Assembly (NCBI GenBank): GCA_000209465.1
Contig: GL890598.1
Location: 9,115-73,114, forward strand
Origin: Lachnospiraceae oral taxon 107 str. F0167
GTDB taxonomy: Bacteria; Bacillota; Clostridia; Lachnospirales; Lachnospiraceae
Direction: 5' to 3'
DNA length: 64,000 nt
Shown here piece after piece: positions 3,628 to 31,779 of this stretch (positions within the stretch are counted from its first letter, which is position 1; every line of letters starts with the position of its first letter). The translations under genes were made by a program, and so were the position numbers. The notes under the pieces are model-generated. The model did not search any database and was not told the DNA's origin. It saw nothing but the letters and a program-made list of their open reading frames with translations.

Positions 3628-3841
3628 GCTGTGACATTGATAGCTATGAAGCATAGGTTGCCGTTTATCGGGTTTTATGTGGAGCGAAGGTCATGTTGCA
3701 AAAACTGGCGACAAGTCACTGTACAAACAGCATCTCATATTGAGTAATTTCGTGGGTTTATTTTTATGACACGCACGGAAGAGTGTACAGTCACCGCTTG
3801 TCAATTTCTTTTATAAGATTGAAAAGGAGGCGGCTTTTTTT
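3628..3841 (+). promoter_or_regulatory. Structured leader RNA of the S10 ribosomal operon
   Basis: About 210 bases separate the promoter from rpsJ. A long-range stem is visible: GACAAG (3710-3715) and ACTGTACA (3718-3725) pair with TGTACAGT (3784-3791) and CTTGTC (3797-3802). It encloses smaller hairpins, for example CTCA/TGAG near 3733-3744. A strong AAAAGGAGG ribosome binding site sits near the end. Leaders of ribosomal protein operons often bind one of the operon's own proteins for feedback control, and that role is inferred here. I cannot match it to a named family by eye. Confidence 0.6.
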
Positions 3842-10363: not shown

Positions 10364-10549
10364 ATGGCAAAGACTTCAATGAAGATTAAGCAGGCCAGAC
10401 CGGCAAAATTCTCTACAAGAGAATATAGCAGATGCAAAATCTGTGGTCGTCCACATGCTTATCTTAAAAAGTATGGTATCTGTAGAATTTGCTTCCGTGA
10501 GTTGGCTTATAAAGGTCAAATTCCAGGAGTTAAGAAAGCAAGCTGGTAG
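10364..10549 (+). CDS. rpsZ: 30S ribosomal protein S14, zinc-binding type Z
   Basis: This is the short, 61-residue zinc form of S14. Four cysteines (about C24, C27, C40, C43) in [20 protein letters not shown] bind zinc. Some authors call the gene rpsN. It ends in GVKKASW. Unusually, 273 bases containing a repeat separate it from rpsH, although these genes are normally almost adjacent. Confidence 0.98.
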
Positions 10550-10552
10550 GCA

Positions 10553-10745
10553 TTGAACACTTAACGAACGCAAGCAAAGCGAAGCGTGAGTTTAGTGTGA
10601 AAGCCCGTCCCGAGACATTGAACACTTAGTGAACACGCAGTGTGAACTTAGTGTGAAAGTCGTTCGCGACACTCAGCGAAAACAAAGTTTGAGCGCTAGT
10701 GGAGTCGAACCAACCTTGCACACATACGTATGCGAGTGGACGTAT
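10553..10745 (+). repeat. Copy A of a 113-bp repeat, between rpsZ and rpsH
   Basis: Bases 10599-10711 match 11274-11386 at 111 of 113 positions; the only differences are the two bases after GCGAAAAC. The repeat contains an imperfect hairpin ACACTTAGT...ACTTAGTGT, and GTCG-TTCG-CGAC with a four-base loop. Sequence just upstream (from 10553) is a diverged version of the same motif. A partial form of the 39-bp unit seen in copy B follows near 10712-10745. No terminator T-run is present. Confidence 0.85.
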
Positions 10746-10822
10746 TTATCAAAAGGCTTAATCGAAGCAAAGAAAAGAAGTTATACAAGATACATTTAAA
10801 ATAAACAGGAGGAAAAAATTCC

Positions 10823-11224
10823 ATGACAATGAGCGATCCAATTGCAGATATGCTTACCAGAATAAGAAATGCAAATACTGCAAAACATGACTCAGTTGAT
10901 ATTCCTTCCTCAAAGATGAAAATAGCAATAGCTAACATACTTGTAGAAGAAGGTTATGTAGAGAAGTACGAACTTGTTGACAATGGTAACTTCAAGGATA
11001 TCAGAATATTCTTAAAGTATACAGCTAACAAGAGCGAGAGAATAATAAGTGGATTGAAGAGAATTTCAAAGCCGGGTCTGCGTATATATGCAAACAGAGA
11101 AGAGCTTCCAAGAGTGCTTGGCGGTCTTGGAACAGCTATTATTTCAACAAATAATGGAGTTATAACAGACAAAGAAGCAAGAAAGCTTAATGTAGGTGGA
11201 GAAGTATTAGCTTTTGTTTGGTAG
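10823..11224 (+). CDS. rpsH: 30S ribosomal protein S8
   Basis: S8 binds the central domain of 16S rRNA and in some bacteria represses the spc operon. The 133-residue chain starts [18 protein letters not shown] and ends with the [19 protein letters not shown] segment. AACAGGAGGAAAAAA lies upstream. It is flanked on both sides by near-identical repeats, a setting I have not seen described for this gene. The product itself looks normal. Confidence 0.98.
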
Positions 11225-11230
11225 GCACCC

Positions 11231-11386
11231 TGTACTTAATGAGCGCAAGCGAAGCGTAGCGCGAATTTAGTACGAAAGCCCGTCCCGAGACATTGAACAC
11301 TTAGTGAACACGCAGTGTGAACTTAGTGTGAAAGTCGTTCGCGACACTCAGCGAAAACGTAGTTTGAGCGCTAGTGGAGTCGAACC
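11231..11386 (+). repeat. Copy B of the 113-bp repeat, between rpsH and rplF
   Basis: The core at 11274-11386 is the partner of the copy before rpsH (111/113 identical). The part before it (11231-11273) resembles the corresponding upstream part of copy A more loosely. Read on the minus strand, the end of the core (GGTTCGACTCCAC) resembles a tRNA T-arm; this may be chance. Confidence 0.85.
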
Positions 11387-11463
11387 CACCCGGCGCATAT
11401 ATGTATGCTAATGTCGAGTGGACGCCACCCGGCACATATACGTATGCTAATGTCGAGTGGATA
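11386..11463 (+). repeat. Two tandem 39-bp units next to the 113-bp repeat
   Basis: Unit 1 is 11386-11424 and unit 2 is 11425-11463; both begin CCACCCGGC and contain the motif GTATGCTAATGTCGAGTGGA. They differ at a few positions. From 11464 to the rplF start the spacer shows nothing clear except the AAGGAGGA ribosome binding site. Confidence 0.8.
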
Positions 11464-11595
11464 CAACAAATATAATTAAGTTTCAACTCTAATAGCAGTA
11501 GTCATAAAGAAATATTTCTTTGATGGCTGCCTATTAGATATAAAACCTGAAAACATGAGCTAAGAGCTCACGATAAATTTAAGGAGGAAGACGGC

Positions 11596-12138
11596 ATGTC
11601 ACGAATTGGAAGAATGCCTATCGCAATTCCGGCAGGAGTAACTGTTACAATTGCAGAAAATAATCATGTGACTGTAAAAGGTCCTAAGGGTACACTTGAG
11701 AGAGCATTACCTGTAGAAATGACTATTAAGCAGGAAGGTGATGACATTGTAGTAACCAGACCAAATGATTTAAAGAAAAATAAAGCATTACATGGTCTCA
11801 CAAGAACTCTTATAAACAACATGGTAGTAGGTGTAACCGCAGGCTATGAGAAGATACTTGAAGTAAACGGTGTTGGTTACAGAGCAGCAAAGCAGGGTAA
11901 TAAACTTGTGCTTTCACTTGGATATTCACATCCGGTAGAGATGGAAGATCCTGAGGGAGTTACATCTGTTCTTGACGGACAGAACATCATAAAGATACAG
12001 GGTATCGACAAGGAAAAAGTCGGACAGTATGCTGCTGAAATAAGAAGCAAGAGAAAGCCTGAGCCATATAAGGGCAAGGGTATCAAATACTCTACTGAAG
12101 TTATCAGACGTAAAGTCGGTAAGACCGGTAAGAAATAA
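11596..12138 (+). CDS. rplF: 50S ribosomal protein L6
   Basis: L6 is 180 residues, two tandem similar domains, located near the sarcin-ricin loop. [15 protein letters not shown] and the C-terminal [12 protein letters not shown] are diagnostic. AAGGAGGAAG precedes the start. A 371-base repeat-bearing spacer lies upstream, which is long for this place in the operon. Confidence 0.98.
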
Positions 12139-22431: not shown

Positions 22432-24146
22432 TGAAAAGGGAAGATATTGAAAGGAAGCTCGACACTGCTGTATCTGGAATGATTCCAAAAGACATGTTTG
22501 ACAGAATCTCTGAAAATATTGTTTCCGCCAATCCGAAAGCAATAGAAAGAGTGATAAAAAAGGAAAAGAAAAAGAACTTTAATATTTTTGGCAGAAGCTT
22601 TATGGGAGTGGCAACCGCGGCTTGTATATTGCTTGTAGCAGGAATTATAGGAGTTCCGTATTATGGTAATAATTTTGTTCCCGACACACATGTGGATATA
22701 GATGTAAATCCCGGAGTTGAGATTGTAACAAATAAAAAGAATAAAGTTTTGAATGTACAATCTACAAATAAGGATGGAGACAGTGTTATAGACGGAATGA
22801 ACCTGAAAAATACTGAACTGAAAGTAGCGGTAAATGCTCTTATAGGTTCAATGGTTCAAAAGGGATATATTGCAAATAACAATACAGGTATATTGGTCAC
22901 TGTAAGAAATGACAATCCTGAGAAGGCAAATAAAGTGAAGGAAGAGGTTCTCTATGATATAAACTTTGCGCTATATACAAATGATGTACAGGCAAATGTT
23001 ATGAATCAGACCTTTAAAAATACTGCGGATGCCAATAAATTTGCAAGAGAGAACAATATATCTATAGGAAAGGCTGTATTTGTACTTAATCTTGCAGCAA
23101 AAGACAGTTCTCTGGATGCAAAAGAGCTGGCTAAAATGAAGGTTACGGATATTGCAAATCTGGTTGCCAAAAAGGGCATAGATATAAGAGATATAGTTGA
23201 TTATGATGATGATGACAGTATCTGGGAGAATATTGCAGATGCCATAGAAGATATAGATGAAGATGCCGGTATTTCTATGAATAAAGAGACCAGGCCGGGT
23301 GATAAAAAGCAGATAGGTGTTGAGGCGGCAAAGCAGATTGCATTTGCACATGCCAAGGTGGCTTTAAAGGATGTTACCTTTATCAAGGCAGAACTTGATA
23401 CTGAGGATGGCAGAGCCGTTTATGAGGTAGAATTTTACAGCGGAAATGTCGAATATGATTATGATATAGATGCACTAAGCGGAGAAATAATATCAAATGA
23501 CTTTGATATTGAAGACTACAGTATACCTGCACAAAGTGCAGCCGCCCCACAGCAAACTGAGGTTTCACAGCAAACTGCGGCGGCACCTGCACCTACAGCA
23601 CCTGCTGCCAATACTCCTTCCAGAGATATAGGCATAGAAAGGGCAAAACAGATAGCACTTTCTCATGCAGGTCTTTCACAGGGAAGTGTATCCTTTGTAA
23701 AGGCGGAGCTTGACCATGAAGACGGAGTGAAGGTATATGATATAGAGTTTTACAGCGGAAATGTGGAGTATGATTATGAAATCAATGCTGCAACAGGAGC
23801 TATAATATCTGTTGACAGAGATATTGAAAACTATTCAATACCGACGGCGGCACCTGCACCTGCGCCAACACCTGCCCCCACAGCAGCTCCGACGCCCACA
23901 CCTACAGCAGCGCCTGCACCTACACAGCCTGCCGCTCCTTCCACCATTTCAGCAGATAGGGCGAAGCAGATAGCGCTTTCTCATGCCGGAGTCGGAGGAG
24001 CAAGCTTTACCAAGGTGGAGCTTGATACGGATGACGGAGTAGCTGTATATGAGATAGAGTTTAAGGTCGATAATGTAGAATATGATTACGAGATTAATGC
24101 CGTAAGCGGTGCAATAATTTCAAGTAAATCTGAAGTTGATGATTGA
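22431..24146 (+). CDS. RsgI-like anti-sigma factor with three PepSY domains
   Basis: The 571-residue protein has a cytoplasmic N-terminus of about 55 residues, one membrane segment (about 57-75, MGVATAACILLVAGIIGV) and a long outside part. The segment HVDIDVNPGVEIVTNKKNKV (about 88-107) matches the RsgI-type domain in which the Asn-Pro bond is known in clostridial RsgI to be cut autocatalytically; N93-P94 are present. Three PepSY repeats follow (about 285-360, 398-470, 506-571), joined by Pro/Ala/Thr-rich linkers, which fit a cell-wall-spanning region. RsgI proteins usually hold SigI factors; here the partner is ECF-like. The signal that the PepSY domains sense is unknown. Confidence 0.85.
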   Translation: MKREDIERKLDTAVSGMIPKDMFDRISENIVSANPKAIERVIKKEKKKNFNIFGRSFMGVATAACILLVAGIIGVPYYGNNFVPDTHVDIDVNPGVEIVTNKKNKVLNVQSTNKDGDSVIDGMNLKNTELKVAVNALIGSMVQKGYIANNNTGILVTVRNDNPEKANKVKEEVLYDINFALYTNDVQANVMNQTFKNTADANKFARENNISIGKAVFVLNLAAKDSSLDAKELAKMKVTDIANLVAKKGIDIRDIVDYDDDDSIWENIADAIEDIDEDAGISMNKETRPGDKKQIGVEAAKQIAFAHAKVALKDVTFIKAELDTEDGRAVYEVEFYSGNVEYDYDIDALSGEIISNDFDIEDYSIPAQSAAAPQQTEVSQQTAAAPAPTAPAANTPSRDIGIERAKQIALSHAGLSQGSVSFVKAELDHEDGVKVYDIEFYSGNVEYDYEINAATGAIISVDRDIENYSIPTAAPAPAPTPAPTAAPTPTPTAAPAPTQPAAPSTISADRAKQIALSHAGVGGASFTKVELDTDDGVAVYEIEFKVDNVEYDYEINAVSGAIISSKSEVDD

Positions 24147-24247
24147 TAAATTATAGTGTATTGAAGATTTATTTTAATAATTAATTGAATTGATTACAGT
24201 TTGGGTAAGGTATAAAAATACTACCTGAACTGTAACCGGAATTTAAA

Positions 24248-30083: not shown

Positions 30084-30193
30084 GTAAATAAGAGGTTTTA
30101 AAATAAAGCAATCTTATATAAATATACCAAAATGATCGTCGATGATGGATGGTGTACATAGAGAATTGTGAATATGGAAAGGATGGAAGCACA

Positions 30194-31705
30194 ATGAAGA
30201 AGAATATATTTAGTAAAGGATTTATAGGAGCGGCAACAGTAGCTTGTGTATTATTGGGAGCAGGAATTTTCGGAATACCGTATTATGGAAATAACTTTGT
30301 TCCGGACTCACATGTGGATATAGATATAAACCCGGGAGTAGAGATAGTAACAAATAAAAATAACAAGGTTATAGAGATATTATCAACAAATAATGACGGA
30401 AAGACAGTTATTGACGGAATGAATCTGAAAAATTCCGAGCTTAAGGTGGCGGTAAATGCACTTATCGGCTCAATGGTTCAAAAGGGATATATAGAAAATG
30501 ACAATACCGGAATACTGGTTACTGTAAGAAATAATAATCAGGACAGGGCGGATAAGGTAAAAGCAGAGGTATTGGATGATATAAACTTTGCACTGTATAA
30601 GAATGATGTGCAGGCGGCTGTTATAAATCAGACCTTAAAAAACACTAAGAATGCGGATAAATTTGCAAGAGAAAACAATGTATCTATAGGTAAGTCCGTA
30701 TTCGTACTGAATCTGGCAGCTAAGGACAGTACTCTGGATGCAAGAGAGCTGGCTAAGATGAGAGTTAGCGATATTGCCGATTTGGTTGTTAAGAAGGGTA
30801 TAGATATAAGGGATATAGTGGATTATGACTATGATGACAGCATCTGGGAGAATACTGCGGACGCTATCGAAGATATAGATGAGAATGCAAATAAAGCGGC
30901 AGGTATAAATACCGTTGCTATATCAAGTACAAAGAAGCAAATCGGTGTTGAGGGGGCAAAGCAGATAGCACTTGCACATGCAAAGGTGGCTCAGAAGGAT
31001 GTTACATTTATTAAGGCTGAACTTGAGACAGAAAATGGCAGATTGGTTTATGATATAGAATTTTACAGCGGAAATGTGGAATATGATTATGATATAGATG
31101 CTGTAAGCGGTGATATAGTATCATATGATTATGATATTGAAAACTACAATATTCCGGTACAGCCTACAGAGGTACAGCAGACAAATGCGGATACGGTGGA
31201 TATAGGCGTAGAAAAGGCAAAAGAGATTGCACTCTCACATGCAGGACATTCTATTGACAAGGTGTCATTTGTAAAGGCTGAAATCGACTATGAGGATGGA
31301 ATAAAGGTTTATGATATAGATTTTCACAGCGGAAATGTAGAATATGACTATGAAATCAATGCGGCAACCGGCAGTATATTATCTGTTGACTGGGATATTG
31401 AAGACTACTCAATACCTGCTCCGGAACCGGCTCCTACAGAGGCACCTGTACCCGCACCCACAGCAGCACCTGCCCCTGCACCGACAAAGGCTGCAAGTTC
31501 AGGTATATCAGCGGAAAGAGCAAAGCAGATTGCACTTTCACATGCAGGAGTAGGAAGCGCGCATTTTACAAAGGTGGAGCTTGATACAGAGGACGGTATC
31601 AGAGTATATGAGATAGAATTTAAGGTCGGAAATGTAGAATATGATTATGATATCAATGTGGCGACAGGTGCAATAGTTTCAAGCAGTTCAGAGATTGATG
31701 ATTGA
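30194..31705 (+). CDS. RsgI-like PepSY protein lacking the sigma-binding N-terminus
   Basis: I start this at the ATG at 30194, giving 503 residues beginning MKKNIFSKGFIGAATVACVL; an upstream in-frame start at 30149 would add 15 residues of no evident homology. From the membrane segment onward it parallels the protein at 22431: DIDINPGVEIVTNKNNKVI with the Asn-Pro site (about N46-P47), then three PepSY repeats and a Pro/Ala-rich linker. The roughly 50-residue cytoplasmic part of its paralogue is absent, so it should not hold the sigma factor. It may act as a decoy, co-sensor or wall-spanning effector made under the same sigma factor. The ribosome binding site AAAGGATGG is moderate. Confidence 0.8.
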   Translation: MKKNIFSKGFIGAATVACVLLGAGIFGIPYYGNNFVPDSHVDIDINPGVEIVTNKNNKVIEILSTNNDGKTVIDGMNLKNSELKVAVNALIGSMVQKGYIENDNTGILVTVRNNNQDRADKVKAEVLDDINFALYKNDVQAAVINQTLKNTKNADKFARENNVSIGKSVFVLNLAAKDSTLDARELAKMRVSDIADLVVKKGIDIRDIVDYDYDDSIWENTADAIEDIDENANKAAGINTVAISSTKKQIGVEGAKQIALAHAKVAQKDVTFIKAELETENGRLVYDIEFYSGNVEYDYDIDAVSGDIVSYDYDIENYNIPVQPTEVQQTNADTVDIGVEKAKEIALSHAGHSIDKVSFVKAEIDYEDGIKVYDIDFHSGNVEYDYEINAATGSILSVDWDIEDYSIPAPEPAPTEAPVPAPTAAPAPAPTKAASSGISAERAKQIALSHAGVGSAHFTKVELDTEDGIRVYEIEFKVGNVEYDYDINVATGAIVSSSSEIDD

Positions 31706-31779
31706 TAGATAATTGTTTAACAATACATATAATATCTAAAAATATTAAATAAATATATAGAAATTACTGATTATAAATA

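Follow-up and report, generated by a model that had tools for sequence, protein, structure and literature searches.

Near-identical repeats flanking rpsH are probably compound copies of a REP-like palindromic family of Lachnospiraceae

Why should two almost identical sequences lie on either side of rpsH? We examined this question in a 64,000-nt stretch of Lachnospiraceae oral taxon 107 str. F0167 (the window). Pfam matches gave the gene order rplE, rpsN, rpsH, rplF, rplR. The rpsN-rpsH and rpsH-rplF spacers are 273 and 371 nt long, compared to 17 nt between rplE and rpsN. The repeats, at 10599-10711 and 11274-11386, differ at 2 of 113 positions, both adjacent (10684-10685), and a repeat family scan of the window grouped the two into a single family of 195 nt (10544-10738 and 11219-11413, 88%). 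The gene ahead of each copy is given here.

10364..10549, + strand: rpsN (S14), end TGG TAG; Pfam PF00253, sequence
10823..11224, + strand: rpsH (S8), end TGG TAG; Pfam PF00410, sequence

A 31-nt piece of the core, with up to three mismatches allowed, matched twice in the window and not once in 100 shuffles. Folded as RNA, both copies beat 200 of 200 shuffles (z -4.0 and -4.0); longer stretches around copies 1 and 2 gave z -3.65 and -4.31 as RNA, and the opposite strand of copy 2 folded as DNA gave z -2.14. A preliminary description had noted the near-identity of the repeats, their unusually long spacers and their stable hairpins, all of which were borne out, the hairpins also by strong covariation in relatives. 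An assembly artefact, also mentioned there, is unlikely: the two copies have unlike flanks, and the assemblies of congeners G088, G301 and G302 contain nested copies as well. The window also contains long diverged direct repeats (22556-24160 and 30178-31719; blocks of 215-300 nt, 60-81% identical, ~7.6 kb apart), which are perhaps paralogous genes.

Each copy is compound, consisting of a two-hairpin unit with a complete second unit inside its hairpin 2. The 113 bp correspond to the nested unit and its edges.

10549..10604, + strand: copy 1, outer unit, hairpin 1, beginning on the G of the rpsN stop TAG (sequence, folds, family alignment, pair counts)
10605..10614, + strand: copy 1, outer hairpin 2, 5' arm (CCGTCCCGAG) (coordinates; un-nested version in congeners G088 and G299)
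10615..10660, + strand: copy 1, nested unit, hairpin 1, core CTTAGTGA...GAACTTAG (fold, core search)
10661..10711, + strand: copy 1, nested unit, hairpin 2, CGTTCGCGACACTCAGCGA...GAGCGCTAGTGGAGTCGAACC (fold, covariance model)
10733..10751, + strand: copy 1, outer hairpin 2, 3' arm (CGAGTGGACG), plus TATTTATCA (fold of 10536-10755)
11224..11279, + strand: copy 2, outer unit, hairpin 1, beginning on the G of the rpsH stop TAG (sequence, folds)
11280..11289, + strand: copy 2, outer hairpin 2, 5' arm (coordinates)
11290..11335, + strand: copy 2, nested unit, hairpin 1 (fold, core search)
11336..11386, + strand: copy 2, nested unit, hairpin 2 (fold; model match 11287-11386, 65.3 bits)
11387..11459, + strand: copy 2, 3' part, two tandem versions of CCACCCGGC...CATATA-GTATGC-TAATGTCGAGTGGA (sequence, fold)

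The covariance model match in copy 1 (10612-10711) scored 66.5 bits, copy 1 itself being among the 23 model sequences. In the minimum-energy fold of 10536-10755, TATTTATCA pairs with the end of rpsN (GGTA). The 3' part of copy 2 holds the 3' arm of outer hairpin 2 (11415-11424). Between copies 1 and 2, outer hairpin 1 carries compensating changes (CTTAACGA...GAGTTTAG versus CTTAATGA...GAATTTAG), and nested units are present also in loci L114 and L080 of relatives.

The structure of the unit was derived from 110 rpsH loci, comprising the best 80 of 582 candidates (mostly Lachnospiraceae) and 30 from the family genome set; rpsH was present in 273 of 299 family genomes, the window is one of the 30 loci, and some genomes are in both sets. 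In these loci the spacers flanking rpsH measure between 12 and 618 nt, and the unit is present in many of the longer spacers. The core CTTANNGA...GANNTTAG was matched 59 times, compared to 1-3 times in five shuffles. This core reads CTTA-XX-GA...GA-YY-TTAG, in which XX and YY covary: both positions were Watson-Crick in 51 of the 59 matches and standard pairs in 57. The unit spans ~110 nt and comprises two imperfect hairpins side by side, both of which contain the core CTTA-XX-GA / GA-YY-TTAG. An alignment of 23 two-hairpin units, hand-chosen and with the structure drawn on the same alignment, had 85.3% of its cells paired and both sides changed in 26 of 38 pairs. Its covariation score was 0.388, compared to 0.163 when shuffled and at most 0.073 when slid, and none of 500 shuffles reached the observed values; the innermost helix of hairpin 2 as drawn (helix 7) was unsupported, with 30% paired. 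The G-A and T-T mismatches were nearly invariant (20 to 23 of 23 rows per column), in part because the core motif was used to select the rows. In a pyrimidine-GA-purine context, tandem G-A pairs tend to be of the sheared type. Covariation together with nearly invariant internal mismatches implies constraint on the fold, which counts against a mobile element.

In relatives, the left end of the unit lies within a stop codon. Genes for rpsN and rpsH that lack a unit mostly end in TGG TAA. When a unit lay flush with either gene the stop was TAG or TGA in 26 of 26 cases, compared to 42 of 191 other sites; counting distinct sites only, the values were 26 of 26 and 39 of 178 (p about 2e-15, with sites taken as independent of kinship). 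The rule for a flush unit was strict, and L010 and L034 were left out of this count. A looser look added 12 possible unit starts, 10 with TAG or TGA and two with TAA, and the rpsH side of L056 is a clear exception in which the unit stands directly behind an intact TAA. The foot of hairpin 1 pairs through the stop letters (for example, GGCC with GGCC or GACC with GGTC). Six loci contain antisense units before rplF, with the left end abutting the rplF leader motif described below. Since the left end adjoins stop codons in the sense orientation and the rplF leader in the antisense orientation, it is the anchored end in both. The rpsN, rpsH and rplF spacers held 52 core matches in sense and 7 in antisense (matches rather than units), a bias that counts against a mobile element.

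Empty sites such as GTTTGG-TAGTT-CCAAAC had suggested insertion into pre-existing hairpins spanning the stop codon, an idea that complement counts did not support. Where the rpsH-rplF site is empty, a complement to the 4 nt preceding the stop codon occurred within the first 25 nt in 7 of 84 cases (7.2 expected), and one to the preceding 5 nt in 3 of 84 (2.9 expected); at empty rpsN-rpsH sites the corresponding values were 1 of 86 (3.0 expected) and 0 of 86 (0.5 expected). A closing GGTA/TACC stem behind the unit was found at 4 of 19 filled sites, and ACC at 6 of 19, by the crude rule of taking the first GAAC after the core.

Both sites were compared across six genomes of the genus, one per species (the window's own, G088, G299, G300, G301 and G302). 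The rpsN-rpsH site holds a nested unit in the window and G302, a simple one in G088 and G299 and a short remnant in G300, and is empty in G301. At the rpsH-rplF site, the window, G088 and G301 carry a nested unit, and the other three genomes (G299, G300 and G302) carry none. Such presence and absence at precise sites among close relatives is the behavior of a mobile element, although with one genome per species loss, conversion and transfer look alike. A 111-nt core was identical in the upstream copy of G302, the downstream copy of G088 and the downstream copy of the window; G301 differed from this set at one position and the upstream copy of the window at two. By comparison, rpsH of G302 and G088 diverges from that of the window by 4.5% and 4.0%, respectively. 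Given that occupancy of both sites varies and that an identical nested core is shared between sites and species, copying appears to have been recent, in keeping with the earlier suggestion of recent spread or gene conversion. Copying between sites, perhaps also between species, is the simplest reading of these sequences; strong constraint on the core is the alternative.

The preliminary description also raised the possibility of a general dispersed repeat. This does not apply to the 113-bp sequence itself, which occurs at only two places in its own genome (3.29 Mb in 70 contigs, 95.8% complete), a longer query adding three weak matches with E 0.1 to 2.5; it does apply to the hairpin type, which is dispersed in relatives. 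We ran a covariance model of the unit over 11 genomes and obtained matches in nine. The own genome gave 10 matches at E ≤ 0.1, two of which are the nested units described here. Scoring covered 150 of 336 first-look candidates, so further weak copies are possible. The other eight lie on contigs C35, C2, C17, C6, C10 and C22, in stretches that all hold 16S rRNA; six precede 16S and two lie directly behind a tRNA-Ala gene, ahead of 23S. Units start directly behind 16S and 5S in congener G299, and across the genus family hairpins precede 16S and follow 16S, 5S, tRNA-Ala and 23S. So few copies, confined to rRNA operon contexts and two spacers, are odd for a selfish repeat. The rRNA operons L234 (own contig C35) and L240 and L241 (G299) are unusual in their gene order, 16S-5S-tRNA-Ala-23S, which places 5S between 16S and 23S. 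In L234 tRNA-Ala occurs twice with a run of N between the two, and because of this run the doubling may be a scaffold artefact.

The core was abundant in the family as a whole. The 299 genomes yielded 1,595 core matches compared to 232 for the reversed pattern, with at least one match in 185 genomes; a single genome contributed 353, leaving 1,242 without it. Of 196 genomes sampled from the class, the 190 that are not Lachnospiraceae gave 68 core matches (in 46 genomes) against 101 reversed, which is not above the control, with G432 as a clear exception (13 versus 0). At sampled loci of other family genomes the hairpins lie behind tRNA genes and ORFs, or between them. Thus, an imperfect palindrome occurs at many dispersed intergenic places above chance, and is REP-like in the broad sense. 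In G016, 538 kb yielded 63 matches, of which 56 have a common flank type and are carried on long stems whose arms are variable but paired. Relative to the neighboring genes, 61 G016 matches showed no orientation preference (19 same/same, 16 opposite/opposite, 9 and 8 mixed); four of them were inside ORFs and five at edges. The long paired stems had suggested placement at terminator tips in this genome, but gene distances and orientation do not fit terminators.

These distributions bear on the proposal that the repeats mediate S8-dependent control of the spc genes. Their position on both sides of rpsH and their stable folds would suit an spc operon regulatory element of this kind. However, hairpins of the same type occur in the leaders and spacers of rRNA operons, after tRNA genes and between other ORFs, and the sites are empty or nearly so in several congeners. 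No Rfam family matched the repeats at gathering score (the best E value in 10540-11610 was 2.4), and the element neither matches a described family of r-protein autoregulatory leaders nor is restricted to r-protein operons. We rejected S8-specific control on the basis of the genomic contexts and the empty congener sites, and regard it as highly improbable. A different conserved motif before rplF, apart from the repeats, is the better leader candidate.

11547..11587, + strand: conserved motif upstream of rplF (CTGAAAACA, stem, AATTTAAGGAGG) (relatives' loci, covarying stem)

This motif, directly before the rplF ribosome-binding site, consists of CTGAAAACA, a covarying stem, AATYTAAG and GGAGG, and was found in 48 of 109 loci as well as in L010 and L034. 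In 24 chosen rows its stem was 89.6% paired, with a covariation score of 0.678 compared to 0.244 when shuffled. The motif had no significant Rfam match. Its ends resemble a 23S stretch of the own genome (CGCTGAAGGCATCTAAGCG), which we take to be helix 97, near L6. The motif is a candidate L6 autoregulatory leader. A pattern search for it in the class returned 0 of 148 genomes and was uninformative, because it also missed the window's own copy, in which AAG and GGAGG overlap. In the open-licence literature we did not find an L6 leader in Lachnospiraceae; papers on other r-protein leaders exist. Within the window, an S10-Clostridia ribosomal protein leader (RF03136, 69.4 bits) lies at 3638-3714, ahead of the S10 operon. 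The rpsH-rplF spacers of L061, L073, L091 and L143 contain a different recurrent hairpin, a AACAAGCACGAGC...GTATTTG-like stem; as this second type occupies the spacer elsewhere, the spacer seems to collect several kinds of hairpin.

A further reading is that the unit is a lineage-specific RNA boundary module, in which a nuclease or RNA-binding protein recognizes a hairpin with tandem G-A mismatches that serves to mark or protect RNA ends. The sites would be stop codons, the 3' ends of tRNA, 5S and 16S, and rRNA leaders, and the unit would have spread because it is useful there. Several results fit this reading: units abut the 3' ends of tRNA-Ala, 5S and 16S and start inside stop codons, sense matches predominate in the spc spacers, the own-genome matches found are confined to ribosome operons, and the nearly invariant mismatches are flanked by covarying pairs. 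Nevertheless, four of five congeners lack the unit at at least one rpsH-flanking site (G300 at both, bar the remnant; G299, G301 and G302 at one), antisense copies in six spc loci abut the rplF leader instead, and the G016 copies are indifferent to orientation. We consider such a module possible but doubtful. Similarly tentative is the idea of a portable boundary mark, whereby a CUUA-XX-GA / GA-YY-UUAG hairpin acted on by one protein or nuclease would sit at the ends of stable RNAs and r-protein cistrons, spread in a mobile-like manner and grow by nesting. The family hairpins resemble rRNA operon processing stems in their positions around 16S, 5S, tRNA-Ala and 23S. Processing stems of rRNA operons are long and are formed by distant flanks. 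In contrast, the family hairpins are local, and the motif is also found in mRNA spacers and at dispersed positions.

REPs are among the closest known systems. GTAG- and CGTC-tagged REPs are short imperfect palindromes, dispersed between genes, often near coding regions and in many cases plausibly transcribed, and GTAG REPs often provide a TAG stop codon to flanking ORFs (PMC3733652, available text). The family described here likewise consists of short imperfect palindromes between genes, and at rpsN and rpsH its left end supplies stop codon letters. It differs in having a ~110-nt unit of two unlike hairpins rather than a single 20-40 bp palindrome, in the rarity of GTAG outside the spc sites, in having no link to Y1 transposases, and in that units nest in one another. 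CGTC lies between hairpins 1 and 2 in the genus (CCCGTCC) and CGTT in many relatives, as seen in the alignment. The strings Firmicutes, Clostridi and Lachno do not occur in the available text of PMC3733652. Another survey lists stem-loop clusters in two Clostridium species (PMC2267715, available text).

More specifically, the repeats might be GTAG-type REPs moved by a RAYT or other IS200-like Y1 transposase. The TAG stop supplied to the neighboring gene, as such REPs often do (PMC3733652, available text), is consistent with this reading, as is the presence of Y1 transposases in the own genome (22 PF01797 matches including fragments). However, GTAG preceded the core by no more than 22 nt in 10 of 40 cases in named spc loci, in 1 of 56 in other contexts (a chosen set, a few inside ORFs), in 0 of 61 in G016 and in 0 of 8 in rRNA operons of the genus. 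We compared 35 copy-rich and 36 copy-free genomes, hand-picked from the core counts in the 299 genomes. IS200-type transposases (PF01797, the sole mover family searched) did not track the copies, being found in 22 of the 35 copy-rich and 23 of the 36 copy-free genomes; PF01797 was therefore absent from 13 copy-rich genomes. Given the rarity of GTAG outside spc sites and these PF01797 counts, we rejected both membership among GTAG REPs and a Y1 transposase as mover, and consider this origin quite unlikely. A partial IS200-like Y1 transposase gene (PF01797) lies at 13-339 of the window, and several of the 22 own-genome matches are broken or fragmentary. Like MITEs, the elements appear non-autonomous and are present or absent at defined sites between close relatives. 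Unlike MITEs, they have by eye neither terminal inverted repeats nor a target duplication at empty/filled junctions, and the search for PF01797 identified no parent transposon.

Taken together, we think it reasonably probable that the repeats are two compound copies of a REP-like palindromic family of Lachnospiraceae, mobile or converted, rather than an S8/rpsH switch. According to this model, the element would behave as non-autonomous DNA whose movement or conversion takes place at the DNA level and whose presence is tolerated at gene boundaries. Sequence comparison shows that rpsH-flanking sites are filled or empty depending on the congener and that units can nest inside the second hairpin of another unit. 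The left end supplies the last one or two letters of the stop codon, as shown at rpsN and rpsH in relatives; because it completes the stop codon, the neighboring gene stays intact. The near-identity of the 113-bp cores would then mean that the nested unit was recently copied from one spacer to the other, through gene conversion or its own movement. When transcribed, copies are predicted to fold into hairpins immediately after stop codons and stable RNAs, with possible secondary effects on processing or stability.

On our best reading the REP-like palindromic family is new, REP-like repeats as a kind being already known; in the open-licence literature we found no REP-like family described in Lachnospiraceae and nothing on these repeats. 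If correct, this interpretation would add a REP-like family that is centred on Lachnospiraceae, has a structure defined by covariation and overlaps the stop codons of essential genes. It would also open the question of what moves palindromic repeats where Y1 transposases are absent, and of whether RNA processing in common gut bacteria is shaped by hairpins located where rRNAs, tRNAs and r-protein cistrons end.
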